Assembly: GCA_905182815.1 (NCBI GenBank)
Contig: CAJJCX010000004.1
Coordinates: forward strand, 496,001-560,000
Length of the DNA: 64,000 bases
From: an uncultured Candidatus Thioglobus sp.
GTDB lineage: Bacteria > Pseudomonadota > Gammaproteobacteria > PS1 > Pseudothioglobaceae
Direction of reading: 5' to 3'
In this document: piece after piece, positions 12,444 to 31,938 of the stretch
Position numbering within the stretch: the first letter of the stretch is position 1
Layout of the letters: every line of letters begins with the position of its first letter
Notes under the pieces: generated by a model
The model's database searches: none
Told to the model about the DNA's origin: nothing
Seen by the model: the letters and a program-made list of their open reading frames with translations, nothing else
Made by a program: the position numbers and the translations under genes

Positions 12444-12471
12444 TTTATTTCCTATTAAATTGAAAAAAAAT

Positions 12472-12532
12472 GAGCGTCGTTTTGGTTACCAAGCCTGATT
12501 GAGAAGTATCCCAATGCAACGCTCCTTGGTAA
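12472..12532 (-). promoter_or_regulatory. SAH riboswitch upstream of ahcY
   Basis: Read on the minus strand, the leader has the SAH-riboswitch architecture. P1 is a perfect 7-bp helix, TACCAAG/CTTGGTA. Directly after its 5' arm comes GGAGCGTTGCA, the conserved core. A 7-bp hairpin (ATTGGGA, loop TACT, TCTCAAT with one G-U) is next. The 3' end CGCTC can pair with GAGCG next to P1 to make the pseudoknot. The element ends about 28 nt before the ahcY ATG, with an AGGA ribosome site between. In known examples this class turns ahcY on when SAH binds. Identification rests on the conserved primary sequence, pairing and gene context. Confidence 0.9.
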
Positions 12533-12539
12533 GTTTGAT

Positions 12540-15699: not shown

Positions 15700-16107
15700 A
15701 TGGATGCAGAAGATTTAAAAAGTGCTGGTCTTAAAGTTACTCTTCCAAGGCTAAAGATTTTAGAAGTTTTGGAGAAATCACCAAACCATCATTTGAGTGC
15801 TGAGGACATCTATAGAGTTCTGATTGAACAAAATGAAGAGGTTGGTGTTGCAACAATTTACCGCGTTTTATCTCAATTTGAAGAATCTGGAATTGTTCAG
15901 AAATTAAATTTTGAAAATAACCAGGCTGTCTATGAGTTATGCGGCTTAGAACATCACGACCATCTAGTGTGTGTGAAGTGCAGTAAGATTATCGAATTTC
16001 AAGATGATGTTATTGAACAACATCAGCTTCAAATTGCAAAAAAACATGGCTTTGAGTTGACTGATCATTCACTATACCTTTATGGCTTATGCAAGGACTG
16101 TCATTAA
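15700..16107 (+). CDS. fur: Ferric uptake regulator Fur
   Basis: 135 residues. The DNA-binding half opens LKSAGLKVTLPRLKILEVL, nearly the canonical Fur sequence. The metal motif EHHDHLVCVKC has H85, H86, H88, C91 and C94, with a second C131/C134 pair at the C-terminus. It represses iron-uptake promoters when Fe2+ is bound. An AAGGA site precedes the ATG. The znuB permease follows within 24 nt, which could suggest Zur, but the sequence is Fur. A good Fur box at 28690-28714 is a likely target. Confidence 0.95.
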   Translation: MDAEDLKSAGLKVTLPRLKILEVLEKSPNHHLSAEDIYRVLIEQNEEVGVATIYRVLSQFEESGIVQKLNFENNQAVYELCGLEHHDHLVCVKCSKIIEFQDDVIEQHQLQIAKKHGFELTDHSLYLYGLCKDCH

Positions 16108-16130: not shown

Positions 16131-16919
16131 ATGGATGATTTTATTTATAGGGCGCTAATTGCGGCAATTGGCGTATCAATAATCGCAGGCTCTCTAGGTT
16201 GTTTTGTTATTTGGAAGCGCCTTTCATATTTTTCGGACTCTATTTCACATAGTGCGCTTTTAGGTGTTGCTCTTGGACTTGCAACTGGACTGGGTATTAA
16301 TTTTGGTTTGGTTATTGTTGGAGGACTATTTGCAACTCTGATTGTTTTTTTGCAGCAAAAAGACTTCTGGTCGAGTGATGCTGTGCTAGGTATCTTCTCT
16401 CATATTTCTCTGTCGCTAGGTATTGTCGTTCTAGGCTTTATTGGGGATCAAAATATAGATTATTTTTCTTATCTTTTTGGAGATATATTATCCATAACCT
16501 CTAAAGATATCTATTGGATATTTTCTGTTATGGTTGTTGTTATTTTTCTATTATTTATTAATTGGAAAAAACTGTTATTACTCACACTTAATGAAGAATT
16601 AGCCAAAGCTGAAGGCGTTAATAAAACCTTTTATGAGCTGCTTTTTATGTTTTTAATAGCACTGGCTGTGTCTGTTTCAGTCCAAATTGTAGGCGTTTTG
16701 TTGATTACCTCTTTACTAATTATTCCGCCTGCAATAGCTCGAGTTTTTTCAAACTCACCTATAGCAATGATTTTTAGCTCAATGATCATATCAATTGTTT
16801 CTGTTTTATTAGGGCTTTACACTTCAATTACATTTGATTTAGCAACTGGTCCTGCCATAGTTATTACTTTAGGAGTTTTCTTTTTTATTGCCCAATTCCT
16901 TCCAAATAGAGGCAGTTAA
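16131..16919 (+). CDS. znuB: Zinc ABC transporter permease (ZnuB family)
   Basis: 262 residues with about eight membrane helices of the ABC-3 family: [27 protein letters not shown] near the start, [17 protein letters not shown], and the conserved [21 protein letters not shown]. The family imports Zn2+ or Mn2+. Neither the ATPase (znuC) nor the binding protein (znuA) is adjacent, so this is an orphan permease placed after fur. Its last 4 nt overlap the convergent prfA end. Confidence 0.87.
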
Positions 16920-27440: not shown

Positions 27441-28577
27441 TTAACTAAAGTAAACCTTTACTTCACCAAATCCTGGAAGTTTTTTTATAATTTCGCTGAG
27501 ATCAAAATTGATCGTACTAATTTCATTATTATCTAAATAATCAACCGAAAGATAAAAGTCCACTAGTATTTCACCCTCTAGATAGTGCAGTTGGGTTCTT
27601 TCAATTTCATAAGAGCAATTCTCAAGTTTGAGCGACTGACTAATAATCTTTAATGCTTGAGCTCTCTCTGGAAGGTCCTTATAAGGCGCATCTTCTTTTT
27701 CTTCATCATTTTCAGGATCAATGTGAACAGTAACGTCATCAAGCTCCTCTATACATTCTTTCGCAACTCTCTCAACGCTAACACTTATTATATGACCCTC
27801 ACTAACGGATAAAAATGGATTGACCTGGACATGAACGTCAGCCGATTTTTTATGACCAACTTTTCTGGTTCTTAAGGTATGAACGCTATTTACACCTTTA
27901 ATATCAGCAAGTGCTTTATGAAGATTTTTTATGTCTTCTGGGTCAATTGAAGTATCTACTAATTCTTTAGTCGCTTCAAATCCAAGTTGCCAGCCAATAT
28001 AAATAATCATTAAGCCAACTATAATTGCAGCAACGCTATCTAGGAAAAAGTATCCATTGGCAGCACCTATAATTCCAATAACAACAACTATAGAGGAAAA
28101 TGCATCAGTTCTATGATGCCAAGCATTTGCTTTAAGTAAGTCAGACTTAATATTTTTAGCAACTTTAACTGTATACCAATACAAAGCTTCTTTACTAAGA
28201 ATTGATAATGCAGCAGCCGCAATTAACCAGTTTTCGTGCTTTAGAGCAGTGGCATTGCTGAAACGACCAAATCCATCAAAAATAATAATAGTACCAACTA
28301 TTGCTAAAAAGATACTTAATCCTAAAGTCGCAACCGTTTCAAATCTTTCATGTCCATATGGATGATCGGCATCTGGCGCTTCTCCAGAAAGTTTTGCGGC
28401 ATACCATGTAACCCAGTCTGTGAGGAGATCTGAGAAAGAATGAATTCCATCTGCAATAAGAGCTCCTGATTGACCTATGATTCCGAGAGAAACTTTTATA
28501 ACAGAAAGTAAAAAATCAATAATTGCTCCTATAACGGTAGCTTTTTGACTTTCTTTAGTGCGATTTATAGAGTGCAT
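27441..28577 (-). CDS. Cation diffusion facilitator transporter
   Basis: 378 residues, longer than E. coli FieF (about 300) because of an extended C-terminal cytoplasmic region. Membrane metal-site motifs are DGIHSFSDLLTDW (TM2) and HHRTDAFSS (TM5). The cytoplasmic domain includes VHTLRTRKVGHKKSADVHVQV. The family exports Zn2+, Fe2+ or Mn2+. A Fur box lies about 110 bp upstream in the intergenic region but is better placed for the opposite strand. Metal specificity is not assigned. Confidence 0.9.
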   Translation of the reverse strand: MHSINRTKESQKATVIGAIIDFLLSVIKVSLGIIGQSGALIADGIHSFSDLLTDWVTWYAAKLSGEAPDADHPYGHERFETVATLGLSIFLAIVGTIIIFDGFGRFSNATALKHENWLIAAAALSILSKEALYWYTVKVAKNIKSDLLKANAWHHRTDAFSSIVVVIGIIGAANGYFFLDSVAAIIVGLMIIYIGWQLGFEATKELVDTSIDPEDIKNLHKALADIKGVNSVHTLRTRKVGHKKSADVHVQVNPFLSVSEGHIISVSVERVAKECIEELDDVTVHIDPENDEEKEDAPYKDLPERAQALKIISQSLKLENCSYEIERTQLHYLEGEILVDFYLSVDYLDNNEISTINFDLSEIIKKLPGFGEVKVYFS

Positions 28578-28678
28578 TGCTAACTTAATAGTTCAAGTAT
28601 GTAACGACCTATTTTAAGTTAAATGCCTTTATTTTTTCATTGAAATCATTTAATTTAAATATTTTTTTTAAATATAGC

Positions 28679-28707
28679 TTGCAATTGTTAATGAGAATGA
28701 GTATCAT
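28679..28707 (+). promoter_or_regulatory. Fur-overlapped promoter
   Basis: TTGCAA (28679-28684) and TATCAT (28702-28707) are separated by exactly 17 nt on the plus strand. The Fur box covers the spacer and the -10 element, as at repressed iron promoters. The start would be near 28714 and feeds the short transcript ending at 28976. Confidence 0.6.
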
Positions 28708-28714
28708 TATCATT
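28690..28714. promoter_or_regulatory. Fur box
   Basis: A 25-bp imperfect palindrome (starting AATGAGAATGA, ending ATCATTATCATT) matches the GATAATGAT-type hexamer repeats of the Fur consensus on both half-sites. fur itself is in the window at 15700. It lies between the CDF gene and the short transcript and overlaps the latter's promoter. Confidence 0.8.
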
Positions 28715-28976
28715 TAATAAATAATTAAGCAAAGGTTCGAAATTGATTACTAATAAATTCAGCTTCCTAATGCAATCTCCTAAGATCGTACGCTGCTCTA
28801 TATTGGTAATTGTTTCAACAGCTTCAAAATAGCCCTCCGAACTATGATGAAGCAAATATCAAAGGAGTTTTAACTAAGTGATAAATTGATTACATTCATA
28901 TTTTTTTACTTCCTTTAAATGTGTATGTCTGTGATTAATTGGCCCTATGTCTTCCTCCTTGCATAGGGCTTTTTTA
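28714..28976 (+). ncRNA. Candidate Fur-controlled small RNA (or very short mRNA)
   Basis: A promoter under a Fur box and a strong terminator define a transcript of about 263 nt with no ORF longer than 29 codons in the present sequence. The terminator loop reads UCUUCCUCCUUG and includes CCUCCUU, the anti-Shine-Dalgarno core of 16S rRNA. A second C/U-rich stretch, ACUUCCUUU, lies about 40 nt upstream in an otherwise AU-rich region. Exposed C/U loops are how several bacterial sRNAs block ribosome sites, and Fur-repressed sRNAs such as RyhB spare iron. No RyhB-like core sequence is seen. A TTG-started 29-codon frame (28743-28832) has a plausible AAAGG site; removing one A from its AAAA run would extend it to about 46 residues, so a tiny secreted peptide is the main rival reading. 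Confidence 0.45.
28942..28976 (+). terminator. Rho-independent terminator with CU-rich loop
   Basis: Perfect 8-bp stem GCCCTATG/CATAGGGC (28942-28949, 28962-28969), 12-nt loop, then six T. It is one of the strongest terminators in the window, yet no gene of normal size ends before it on this strand. Confidence 0.9.
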
Positions 28977-28995
28977 ATAGAATATAAAAATAAAA

Positions 28996-29175
28996 ATGAA
29001 ATATTGGTATAGATACAAACTCTTTATTTTAAAAAAAACTAATCGACTAGATTTTATATCGATGAGGAGATTAGGTATTCCAAAAAAAATTATTGGAAAA
29101 GTGATTTTAGATGAGGTTAAAAATGACCTTAGACTTAAGGGAGATATCTCCAAATATCACTACAAATATAACTAA
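28996..29175 (+). CDS. Hypothetical small basic protein, 59 residues
   Basis: An ATG-started frame of 59 codons follows the terminator by 20 nt and ends at TAA 29173. The product is rich in Lys, Arg and Tyr (start MKYWYRYKLFILKK) and has a patch RRLGIPKKIIGKVI. I do not recognise a family. There is no good ribosome site (AT-rich upstream) and no clear promoter. In AT-rich DNA a 59-codon frame can arise by chance, but the residue mix is protein-like. It is the only candidate gene between the terminator and the peroxiredoxin gene. Confidence 0.35.
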   Translation: MKYWYRYKLFILKKTNRLDFISMRRLGIPKKIIGKVILDEVKNDLRLKGDISKYHYKYN

Positions 29176-29249
29176 TTAAAAGTAATAAATTATATTTGCA
29201 TTAACTACAGAATTAAAAAAACATTAATCATTACTATAAGGACAAAACT

Positions 29250-29849
29250 ATGAGCGTTTTAGTTACACAGCAAGCACCAGACTTTATATCCACAGCAGTT
29301 CTTGCAGATGGGCAAATTGTAGAGGATTTTCAACTATCAAGTTTTAAAGGTAAAAAAATTGTATTGTTCTTCTATCCCTTAGATTTTACGTTTGTATGCC
29401 CGACAGAGATTCTTGCACATCACCATAGAGTTGCTGCTTTTGATAAGCTCGATACTCAGTTAATTGGAGTTTCTATTGACTCAAGACATACTCATAATGC
29501 TTGGCGAAATACTAAAATAAATGATGGTGGTATTGGATTTATTGATTTTCCATTAGTTTCTGATATGGATCATAAAATTATGGAAAAGTATGGCATTGTC
29601 CACCCAGAGGGAACAGCTTTAAGGGCATCTTTTTTAATTGATGAGAATTTTGTTGTTCGTCATCAAGTTGTTAATGATCATCCTCTAGGTAGAAATGTGG
29701 ATGAAATGCTAAGAATGGTTGATGCACTTGATTTTCATACTGAAAATGGAGAGGTATGCCCTGCAGGTTGGAATAAGGGTGATGAAGGAATGAAGGAATC
29801 AGCTGAAAGCGTTGAAGAGTATTTATCAAAAAATTCTGCCAACCTTTAA
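29250..29849 (+). CDS. 2-Cys peroxiredoxin (AhpC/Prx1 type)
   Basis: 199 residues. Peroxidatic C50 lies in FTFVCPTE, and resolving C170 in GEVCPAGW, with the YF-like C-terminal tail replaced by SKNSANL. It reduces hydrogen and organic peroxides using thioredoxin or AhpF; no ahpF is adjacent, so thioredoxin (26513) is a plausible donor. An AAGGA site lies 9 nt before the ATG. Its place downstream of a Fur-controlled transcript is suggestive for oxidative stress, but a terminator separates them. Confidence 0.94.
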   Translation: MSVLVTQQAPDFISTAVLADGQIVEDFQLSSFKGKKIVLFFYPLDFTFVCPTEILAHHHRVAAFDKLDTQLIGVSIDSRHTHNAWRNTKINDGGIGFIDFPLVSDMDHKIMEKYGIVHPEGTALRASFLIDENFVVRHQVVNDHPLGRNVDEMLRMVDALDFHTENGEVCPAGWNKGDEGMKESAESVEEYLSKNSANL

Positions 29850-29874
29850 TTTGATAAAAATATAATATTTAAAA

Positions 29875-31938
29875 TTAGCTTTTTTCTACAATAATATTAA
29901 AATTTGGAAGTGCTTTAATAAGATGTTTTCCATAAAACTTTGTTACTAGCCTATTATCAAAAATAGTAATTTTACCCGAATCTGTCTCAGTTCTTATGAG
30001 CCTCCCACAAGCTTGTATTAATCTTAATGAAGCGTCTGGTAGAGAAATTTCCATAAATGAATTTCGATTTAACGACTCAAGATATGATTGAGTGGTTTTT
30101 TCAATTGGCGATGTTGGGACGCTAAATCTTAACTTAGCAATAATTACGTGGTTTAAATTATCACCTTTAAGGTCAACACCTTCAGCAAAGCTATCAAGAC
30201 CAAAAATTATGCTGCCCTTACCATTTTTTCTATTTTCAACATGTCTTTCTAGGATATTTTTTTTGCTATATTCACCTTGAATGTATAGATCACAATCTAA
30301 TGATTTTTCTATTAAGTCGGCCACACTCTGCATTTGATTGTTTGATGCAAAAAGCACGAGTGTCGCTGCTGATGTATCAATACGTTTTTTTAACTCTAGC
30401 GCAATTTCTTGAGTGTGATCAAAAGACTGTGTTGGGCTTGCATTAATTTTGGCGATTATAAAGTCAACTGACTCATGATTGAACGGAGATGCCAGGCGAA
30501 GATACTGATTTTCTAATAACTTTAATCCAAGTTGTTGATTTAATCTATCAAAGCTTCCTAGAGCAGTCAATGTAGCCGATGTAAAAACAACTCCTGCTGC
30601 TTTAGACCATATTAATTTGTCTAAATAGCTAGAGACATCAATTTTTGCAGTGTTTAGTTGATAGTTATTTTTTTTATTAGCAAGCTTTGATTGACTTATC
30701 CAGTTACTTGTTGGAGCTTGTTCATTATTTAGGTTCTGATTAAATGTATTTAAAAGCGATAAGATTGAAGATAGATTTTGATTATTTTGACCAATTATAT
30801 TATTTAAGTTATCAGTTATAGCCTGGTCAATATTATTACTTTTATAGTGCTCTTCCCAAATATCTTTATGCTCTGAAAAATCTTTATACGCTGAATTAAA
30901 TAAGACTAATATTTGTTTGGTTAAATTCAGTATTTCACTAGGCACGCCAGTTATGGGAAATAGATGAATATCATCTTGGTATTCAAGATTTGAGATGACT
31001 TCAGTTAGATCACTTATAGCTTCGTCTGTCTTTTCAATATAACTAGCAGGGGATGTAATTTTTATAATTTTTATAATTTGATCTATGGCGCTCTGATATT
31101 GACGGATAGATGTTTTCATGAACTCAGTACTTCCACCCAGTGAAAAATGAGAAAGTGCTTTTTGAGATAGATGATGAGCCTCATCAAAAACAAAAATACA
31201 ATCTTCAACTTCAGGAAGAACATTATTACCATTTATAATATCGGCCAAAACTAGATCATGATTTGCAATAATTACGTCAGCATGTGAAGCTTTTTTTCTA
31301 GCTTTAAAGAAAGCGCAATCATTATAAAATTCACAATTTTTAGAGTTGCATGTAAATCGATTGCAGGCAATTTTTTGCCATAATTTATTTTCAGGTGGAT
31401 TCTCAAGGTCATCAATTTCCCCACTCCACCTTGTGGCAGTATAGCTTTCAGTCATTTCACTTAAAACATCTAAGTCATTTTTACTTGGCTTTTCATCCCA
31501 AAGAAGAGCATCATCTATAAGAGAAGGAGAGCTTGAATTGTCTTCTGTCAGGTTAATTAAGTTTCGAATACAAACATATCTTGACCTTCCTTTAGCTAAA
31601 GCATATTCAAAATCAACTGAAGAATATTTCTCTGCCTCAACAATATCTTTATTTAGAATTTGTTCTTGAAGTGCTACATTTGCAGAAGCTATAACTAGCT
31701 TCTTTTTTGACTCTTTTGCAATTGGTAAGCAGCTCACTAGGTAAGCCATAGTTTTCCCAGTTCCAGTTGGAGCTTCAACACATATGATTGGGTTTGAATT
31801 GGCATACTCACCTGTCAATGTTTTTGAAATCTCAGCAATCATTTTATTTTGAGATGAGCGGTTACTAAAATTTGGTAATTGTTTTTTCGCATCTTCAAAG
31901 GAAGAGCGTATTTGCTGTTTAAGTTTTGTTGTAAGCAT
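29875..31938 (-). CDS. dinG: ATP-dependent DNA helicase, DinG/YoaA family
   Basis: 687 residues. An XPD-like 5'-3' helicase with an iron-sulfur cluster. Walker A is APTGTGKT near residue 57, Walker B is DEAH (VFDEAHHLS). Four cluster cysteines are in order: VCIRN, then FTCNSKNCEFYNDC before FFKARKKASHADVIIANH. The C-terminal motif QACGRLIRTETD closes the helicase core. It resolves R-loops and G4 or repair intermediates. YoaA is a close relative; the length is nearer DinG. It ends the rlmE-ispB-dinG run. Confidence 0.88.
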   Translation of the reverse strand: MLTTKLKQQIRSSFEDAKKQLPNFSNRSSQNKMIAEISKTLTGEYANSNPIICVEAPTGTGKTMAYLVSCLPIAKESKKKLVIASANVALQEQILNKDIVEAEKYSSVDFEYALAKGRSRYVCIRNLINLTEDNSSSPSLIDDALLWDEKPSKNDLDVLSEMTESYTATRWSGEIDDLENPPENKLWQKIACNRFTCNSKNCEFYNDCAFFKARKKASHADVIIANHDLVLADIINGNNVLPEVEDCIFVFDEAHHLSQKALSHFSLGGSTEFMKTSIRQYQSAIDQIIKIIKITSPASYIEKTDEAISDLTEVISNLEYQDDIHLFPITGVPSEILNLTKQILVLFNSAYKDFSEHKDIWEEHYKSNNIDQAITDNLNNIIGQNNQNLSSILSLLNTFNQNLNNEQAPTSNWISQSKLANKKNNYQLNTAKIDVSSYLDKLIWSKAAGVVFTSATLTALGSFDRLNQQLGLKLLENQYLRLASPFNHESVDFIIAKINASPTQSFDHTQEIALELKKRIDTSAATLVLFASNNQMQSVADLIEKSLDCDLYIQGEYSKKNILERHVENRKNGKGSIIFGLDSFAEGVDLKGDNLNHVIIAKLRFSVPTSPIEKTTQSYLESLNRNSFMEISLPDASLRLIQACGRLIRTETDSGKITIFDNRLVTKFYGKHLIKALPNFNIIVEKS

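Follow-up and report, generated by a model that had tools for sequence, protein, structure and literature searches.

What is made from the stretch between a divergently oriented cation efflux gene and a 59-aa reading frame in this genome of an uncultured Candidatus Thioglobus, a sulfur oxidiser of sea water, where a Fur box overlies a promoter and a terminator follows with no normal gene between them? An earlier note on the 64,000-nt stretch of DNA analysed here (the window) had proposed a small RNA (sRNA) that blocks ribosome sites and is induced by iron starvation. The analysis leads to a reading of this kind, to which we assign a probability of roughly 0.6, namely a Fur-repressed, Hfq-independent, intrinsically terminated sRNA of about 262 nt that would act in trans by blocking Shine-Dalgarno (SD) sites. 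Its computed support comprises the promoter with its Fur box, the terminator, the structure, the conservation, the missing Hfq and ProQ matches, and copies of the RNA elsewhere. The features of the locus, together with the presumed repressor, are the following.

15700..16107, plus strand: Fur, the presumed repressor (NF006999, 197 bits against a cut-off of 146)
27441..28577, minus strand: CDF cation efflux gene, divergent neighbour (PF01545, TIGR01297)
28679..28707, plus strand: promoter core, TTGCAA, 17-nt spacer, TATCAT; near invariant across 10 aligned loci
28690..28714, no strand assigned: predicted Fur box AATGAGAATGAGTATCATTATCATT over the spacer and -10; 17/19 to consensus
28714..28975, plus strand: predicted small RNA, about 262 nt (folding, consensus structure)
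28941..28975, plus strand: intrinsic terminator with anti-SD-like loop UCUUCCUCCUUG (28950-28961), supported by sequence, shuffles and two-sided changes
28996..29175, plus strand: 59-aa ORF just past the terminator, following the unit in 10/10 orthologues
29250..29849, plus strand: peroxiredoxin (AhpC/TSA) gene, downstream (PF00578)

A Fur-type promoter and an intrinsic terminator

The two promoter hexamers (-35, TTGCAA, 28679-28684; -10, TATCAT, 28702-28707; 17 nt between) are by themselves at chance level, a promoter scan returning 10 in positions 28000-30000 against 10.9 expected. Fur boxes were scored against the 19-mer GATAATGATAATCATTATC, which we take to be the Fur consensus, and the 19-mer at 28693-28711 agrees with it at 17/19 positions. 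Matches of at least 17/19 occur once in the 64-kb window, exactly on the sRNA promoter, and once in total over 40 dinucleotide shuffles of the window. In the alignment described below the box is kept at 10/10 loci, with altered letters in two genomes (G023 and G028). The predicted Fur box sits on the sRNA's own promoter, and the arrangement first described, a Fur box over a 17-nt-spaced promoter, is borne out both by the score and by its retention in nine relatives. Directly after fur lies a gene for a ZnuB-like permease (16131-16919; NF007089, 202.9 bits, under the cut-off of 284).

About 235 nt past the -10 begins a perfect 8-bp stem (GCCCTATG, 28942-28949, with CATAGGGC, 28962-28969) that encloses the loop TCTTCCTCCTTG (28950-28961) and is followed by TTTTTT to 28975. 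Counted as a perfect 8-bp stem with at least 4 G/C, a loop of 3-14 and T6, terminators of this form are found at three places in the window (10988, 28942, 46275) and at none in 40 dinucleotide shuffles of it; the promoter/terminator scan misses the one at 28942 because its loop limit is 8. With the 5' end placed 7 nt beyond the -10, a discrete non-coding transcript ending at this intrinsic terminator is predicted. The window's ORF list contains no plus-strand ORF of at least 30 aa within the RNA, the longest noted being a 29-aa TTG frame. The earlier description of a perfect terminator downstream, with no normal gene between, has held up, and this terminator exceeds chance.

Coding potential

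A conserved longer frame through the region, which had been taken to tell against an sRNA, was sought and not found. A plus-strand frame of 38-46 aa is open in 7/10 loci (ATG, 38-39 aa in six; TTG, 46 aa in one more) and broken in the window, G023 and G028 (29, 18 and 27 aa). On the minus strand, the 55-aa frame at 28688-28855 was rejected, having no counterpart in all ten orthologues, and no frame of at least 40 codons was found that is kept in all ten. A dual-function RNA, which in some members of the genus has a 38-46-aa peptide encoded in its 5' domain as well, would agree with the seven open frames and with synonymous changes in 30/99 single-change codon pairs among the six ATG frames against 0.19 expected, these pairs not being independent. 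We nonetheless hold it to be highly improbable, given that the frame is broken in three of ten loci including the window, that its start falls inside a conserved helix, and that pairwise differences among the six ATG frames spread evenly over the codon positions (47/53/52), with no third-position excess.

Conservation and genomic neighbourhood

A DNA search of 58 genomes recovered the full unit from its own genome and from nine more, every one within the same genus; two other matches were only 26 and 44 nt long. The 26-nt match (L012) was left out as chance, and L011, which shares only the Fur-box region, was left out of the counts. Following orientation of the three loci on the minus strand (L003, L004, L010), the alignment presents Fur box, -35, terminator and C/U patches as nearly unchanged, with linkers that vary and a stretch of about 20 nt that has been gained or lost. 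The position between CDF and peroxiredoxin genes, for which the earlier note had suggested looking in relatives, is confirmed on the CDF side, this gene adjoining in 9/10 loci (the exception is L007), and is not constant on the other, the peroxiredoxin gene being present in 7/10 loci, with another gene in L002 and L010 and none in L009. By its CDF the window belongs to a Thioglobaceae-type gammaproteobacterium: among named genomes this protein is matched best in Candidatus Pseudothioglobus aerophilus (98%) and in SUP05-cluster bins (97% and 94%), in a search that may leave out records very close to the genome of the window. The 59-aa ORF, found in 18/83 family genomes, has no Pfam or NCBIfam match, and no relatives of it were found in viral contigs; it is possibly an iron-response microprotein.

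Reading of related loci indicates how the unit can disappear. L077 has a CDF with 98% identity, and its deletion of the region reaches into the peroxiredoxin gene, leaving remnants of that gene; in L080 and L083 the Fur box/sRNA region is deleted while scraps of the 59-aa gene remain. Since the sRNA has been lost by deletion in these three loci, and was not found in many genomes of the genus, it is dispensable; the cassette seems to be an old one with repeated losses. Elsewhere in the family, Fur-like boxes (14-16/19) beside CDF precede iron-type genes, so that this type of box fits iron genes: feoAB-like genes in L097 and L106, an fbpC-like ABC gene in L092, L094, L101, L104, L105, L107 and L117, and a bacterioferritin-like gene in L116, all gene names being assigned by reading.

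Seven loci of other genera (L069, L070, L071, L072, L073, L075, L076) carry a Fur box about 400-700 bp ahead of their 59-aa homologue with, between the two, a cluster of one or two tiny genes comprising an ORF of about 25-30 aa (e.g. MKAKKGYLLISRKELEDYLDFFSKLAN), a strongly folding stretch and a Cys-rich ORF of about 40-45 aa; the 59-aa homologue and then, by reading, a porin-like gene follow the cluster. One 27-aa and two Cys-rich example ORFs from these clusters have no NCBIfam match. A similar 24-aa ORF precedes the feoAB-like genes of L097. As a homologue of the present RNA the intercistronic stretch was rejected, since the 3' covariance model R1 (see below), run with filters off, gave only 8.7 bits at L070:1178-1347; the best R1 match of the set, 19.2 bits in L075, falls outside the stretch. 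Of the seven loci, only L075 has a clear excess of anti-SD-like words; L069 and L070 have a weak one, and for the other four it is not clear. Synteny and design alone point to a kinship of these RNAs, which we do not claim.

Fold and covariation

The 263-nt strand of the window has a folding energy of -59.7 kcal/mol, compared with -42.8 for its shuffles (z -4.0), and 10/10 orthologues beat every one of 100 shuffles each, with z of -3.7 to -6.8. Their consensus structure has 47 pairs in six helices (five hairpins), and 97% of its cells are paired as compared with 30-46% for slid controls. Upstream of the terminator its elements are these.

28735..28819, plus strand: 5' domain, long hairpin GGUUCGAAAUUGAUUAC to GUAAUUGUUUCAAC, holding patch CUUCCU (28763-28768); 14 pairs
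28821..28853, plus strand: second hairpin, loop CCCUCCGAA (28833-28841); CCUCC in 10/10 sequences
28857..28883, plus strand: third hairpin, AAAGGAG (28861-28867) mostly in the loop; AUAUCAAAGGAG in 10/10
28886..28938, plus strand: fourth helix UUGAUUACA/UGUGAUUAA around patch ACUUCCUUUAA (28908-28918); pair changes

Covariation within the ten close orthologues is weak, two-sided changes affecting 4/47 pairs (a number reached by 6/500 shuffles) and the covariation score being equalled by 57/500 shuffles. In the 5' domain hairpin 95% of the cells of its 14 pairs are paired, and changes are one-sided only. For the 3' domain (the last two helices) the alignment combined the ten orthologues with four diverged homologues, 14 sequences of which 13 are distinct, and the structure tested was the one drawn from the window. 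Among the 13 distinct sequences 96% of cells are paired against 26-43% for slid structures, and two-sided changes occur in 5/18 pairs against a shuffled mean of 2.6; five such pairs are reached by 23/500 shuffles, the covariation score and the percentage paired by 0/500. One pair of the fourth helix changes from A-U to G-C in 5/13 distinct sequences, and the terminator stem has two-sided changes in 4/9 pairs.

C/U-rich patches

Besides the terminator loop, a second C/U patch had been reported upstream. The patch is there, and the count was too low, with three further patches, all kept in nine relatives; reading and fold together give four in the RNA, CUUCCU (28763), CCCUCC (28833), ACUUCCUUUA (28908) and UCUUCCUCCUU (28950). 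They are kept with small changes while the helices vary, and a patch is present in 3/5 hairpin loops of the window's own fold. The 263-nt transcript contains 10 anti-SD-like 5-6-mers; mononucleotide shuffles contain 1.1, and 0/500 of them reach 10.

The invariant AAAGGAG (28861), partly paired in the window's own fold, is complementary to the RNA's own C/U patches, with which, we infer, it may form kissing contacts that mask or shape them. This capacity for internal pairing, along with conserved loop letters that extend past the anti-SD core, would suit a different role for the loops, as protein sites (e.g. for a cold-shock-type RNA binder) or as parts of a sponge RNA, SD pairing then not being the mechanism. 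Such a role seems improbable to us, for the anti-SD core is found repeatedly, in several settings, and the staphylococcal sRNA IsrR has the same design, its regions of this kind being modelled on SD sites from probing data (PMC9410917).

Diverged copies and the leader alternative

Searching with a covariance model built from the 3' 166 positions (R1) added to the ten orthologues two matches each in G001 and G019, weak (28-33 bits) but well-formed, and a chance-like one in G013 (L032, 26.3 bits), which is coding by reading and was left out. A second model (R2), built with the four G001/G019 copies added, picked up two sequences that had not gone into it, a copy in G026:C22 scoring 62.7 bits and another in G001, the third there, scoring 62.2 bits; the latter (L058) is almost identical to L033 and may be an assembly or strain duplicate of it. 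Matches at E <=0.01 occur in 13/83 family genomes, all within one of 11 genera, and the order-level search covered the same 83 genomes. The genus concerned, with 29 genomes, has 10 of the Fur type, three with diverged copies and 16 with none found, an absence that is no proof since the first-look filter scores only 34-51 candidates per genome. Weak R2 matches in G017, G072, G020 and G081 (24.8-28.9 bits) were left out of the counts. The match in G017 (L052, G017:C7:33655-33732; 28.9 bits, E 0.08) is a possible further relative, reading of which gives the same design, a helix with CUCUCCUUU and then a terminator.

The five diverged copies whose promoters were read have TTGCAA (TTGCAT in G026) at 17-nt spacing, and no Fur box was found near these promoters, the best match being 9-13/19. 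By reading, the copies retain the C/U loop of the fourth helix and, in most cases, that of the terminator. Those of G001 and G019 adjoin, as judged from translations, an EamA-like transporter or a SEL1-like repeat gene, and no match to the 59-aa ORF was found in G001, G019 or G026. In the type-a copies L030 and L031 a shared and conserved imperfect inverted repeat, ATACCC(T/G)ATAG(C/T)AGG(G/A)GTAGGATAT, lies between and over the -35 and -10 and is a candidate operator. Control of these two by IscR is not supported: scored against what we take to be the type-1 IscR consensus (25 positions), they reach 16 and 19/25, while five iscR promoters reach 20-22 and the background mode is 16.

These copies bear on the possibility that the region is a Fur-controlled leader or attenuator of the 59-aa gene, in which case the short RNA would be a terminated by-product whose loops act in cis or not at all. 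In the window the ORF begins 26 nt beyond the stem, and it comes after the terminator in each of the ten orthologues; in the seven loci of other genera a Fur box again stands upstream of the 59-aa homologue, with tiny ORFs between. The best point in favour of a leader is that the scan found no plus-strand promoter-like site between 28713 and 29868, so that read-through into the 59-aa and peroxiredoxin genes is possible. On the other hand, no SD is seen before the 59-aa ORF in the window, and the only antiterminator seen would pair AGCCCU in the second loop with AGGGCU in the terminator; G028, with a changed terminator and an unchanged loop, no longer has this pairing. Moreover, the 3' domain recurs in G001, G019 and G026, all without a match to the 59-aa ORF. 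The existence of diverged copies elsewhere, with neither Fur box nor 59-aa ORF, speaks for an RNA acting in trans rather than a leader of the following gene and is our main argument that the RNA would be a unit of its own; we regard the leader as unlikely.

RNA chaperones and predicted targets

Hfq was matched in 1/83 family genomes, not including the own genome, and ProQ in 0/83, the E. coli controls being positive in both searches. The own genome is 76.8% complete; 49/83 genomes have a completeness of 90% or more with contamination of no more than 5%, and Hfq is present in only one of these 49. Because matches to the two chaperones are nearly absent, a trans-acting sRNA of this lineage must probably work without both.

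Messages were ranked as possible targets by the energy of their duplex with the RNA, using 446 crude gene calls, of which 128 have ATG and SD; the top 20 and 20 others taken at random were then annotated and compared. Iron-protein domains are found in 4/20 of the best-pairing messages (a Fer4_20 protein, a NuoE-like 2Fe-2S protein, a Rieske protein, and ThiC, whose start is doubtful) against 2/20 controls (a NuoB-like protein and a dihydroorotate-dehydrogenase-like protein with Fer4), which is no enrichment; the gene starts behind this comparison were crude, and some clearly lie within a gene (ThiC, glutamyl/glutaminyl-tRNA synthetase). Upstream of 3157 candidate ATGs, exact 8-mer matches number 14 for the third patch, four for the fourth, three for the first and one for the second. 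The strongest individual candidate, the site UUCGGAGG ahead of a preT-like gene that was found in 10/29 genus genomes, was rejected as a discriminating target, being kept in 4/4 genomes with the sRNA but also in 4/6 without one found.

The proposed mechanism would operate as follows. In the presence of iron, Fur would cover the promoter and keep the RNA off. When iron is short, the RNA would be made and fold into five hairpins, and its C/U-rich patches would pair with the SD regions of certain messages and so keep ribosomes from binding; these targets would presumably encode iron-using proteins, so that iron would be spared. This action would take place without Hfq or ProQ, as IsrR acts without Hfq in staphylococci. 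The sRNA reading of the earlier note stands as regards its Fur-type promoter, a structured non-coding unit, kept C/U patches and the lack of a protein frame; SD blocking, like transcription, the iron response, pairing, targets and iron sparing, is a step that we infer.

Relation to known iron-responsive RNAs

Searching the whole window gave no Rfam family at gathering score for the sRNA, and specifically no RyhB, which was also without a match in the region at E up to 5. GcvB (RF00022) came closest to attention with a full-length match of 25.5 bits (E 0.00066) in the window and common ACUUCCU and GUGAUU stretches. Membership was rejected, the cut-off being 42 bits and 0/9 orthologue loci matching at E up to 5. 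In L013 the end of a gene with no relation to this RNA, together with the terminator that follows, scores higher (30 bits), and we read the resemblance as one of chance. An SAH riboswitch lies at 12465-12533 on the minus strand (RF01057, 50.8 bits).

The presumed Fur-repressed, iron-sparing logic and the setting in Gammaproteobacteria are shared with RyhB and PrrF. These depend on Hfq (excerpt of PMC9410917), a dependence that would not apply here, no Hfq match being found in 82/83 family genomes, the own included. The idea of a RyhB counterpart therefore survives as a works-like comparison only. With no RyhB match and no Hfq, IsrR of Staphylococcus aureus appears the better analogue, a likeness in how the design would work rather than a claim of common descent. 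It has several single-stranded C-rich regions in loops, a likeness that for the RNA described here rests on predicted structure; it is 174 nt long against about 262 nt here, its host belongs to another phylum, and its regulation has been shown by experiment, whereas here it is read from sequence. FsrA of Bacillus subtilis is an iron-sparing sRNA whose C-rich motif binds SD and which needs FbpA, FbpB and FbpC; IsrR resembles these iron sRNAs in neither synteny nor sequence (PMC9410917 for both statements). The RNA here has no Rfam match to FsrA at gathering score.

Among the literature matches listed for sRNA, Fur or Hfq in SUP05 or Thioglobus, titles and abstract openings contain nothing on this RNA, nor do those listed mention sRNA-based iron sparing in the Pseudothioglobus/SUP05 group. 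Those listed for Fur-regulated sRNAs without Hfq likewise contain nothing on it, and the search for anti-SD terminator loops gave no match. The locus would represent a new RNA family, and a new lineage, for a known kind of regulator, the Fur-controlled SD-blocking sRNA.

Implications

Iron is scarce across much of the sea. Relatives in the Pseudothioglobus/SUP05 group are known, from the literature excerpts, from hydrothermal plumes, oxygen-minimum waters and animal hosts. If the reading as a Fur-repressed, SD-blocking sRNA is true, it would suggest that Gram-positive-style C-rich loops acting directly on SD sites arise when chaperones are lost. A wider and rather doubtful extension is a modular sRNA family in Hfq- and ProQ-free Gammaproteobacteria, to which a related C/U-loop RNA between Fur-controlled microprotein genes in other genera would be added. 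One RNA body, a C/U-loop helix and a C/U-loop terminator with a TTGCA-type, 17-nt-spaced promoter, would then stand behind different operators, Fur in ten genomes and others in three sister genomes, so that SD blocking may answer different signals; the diverged copies make such operator swapping testable.
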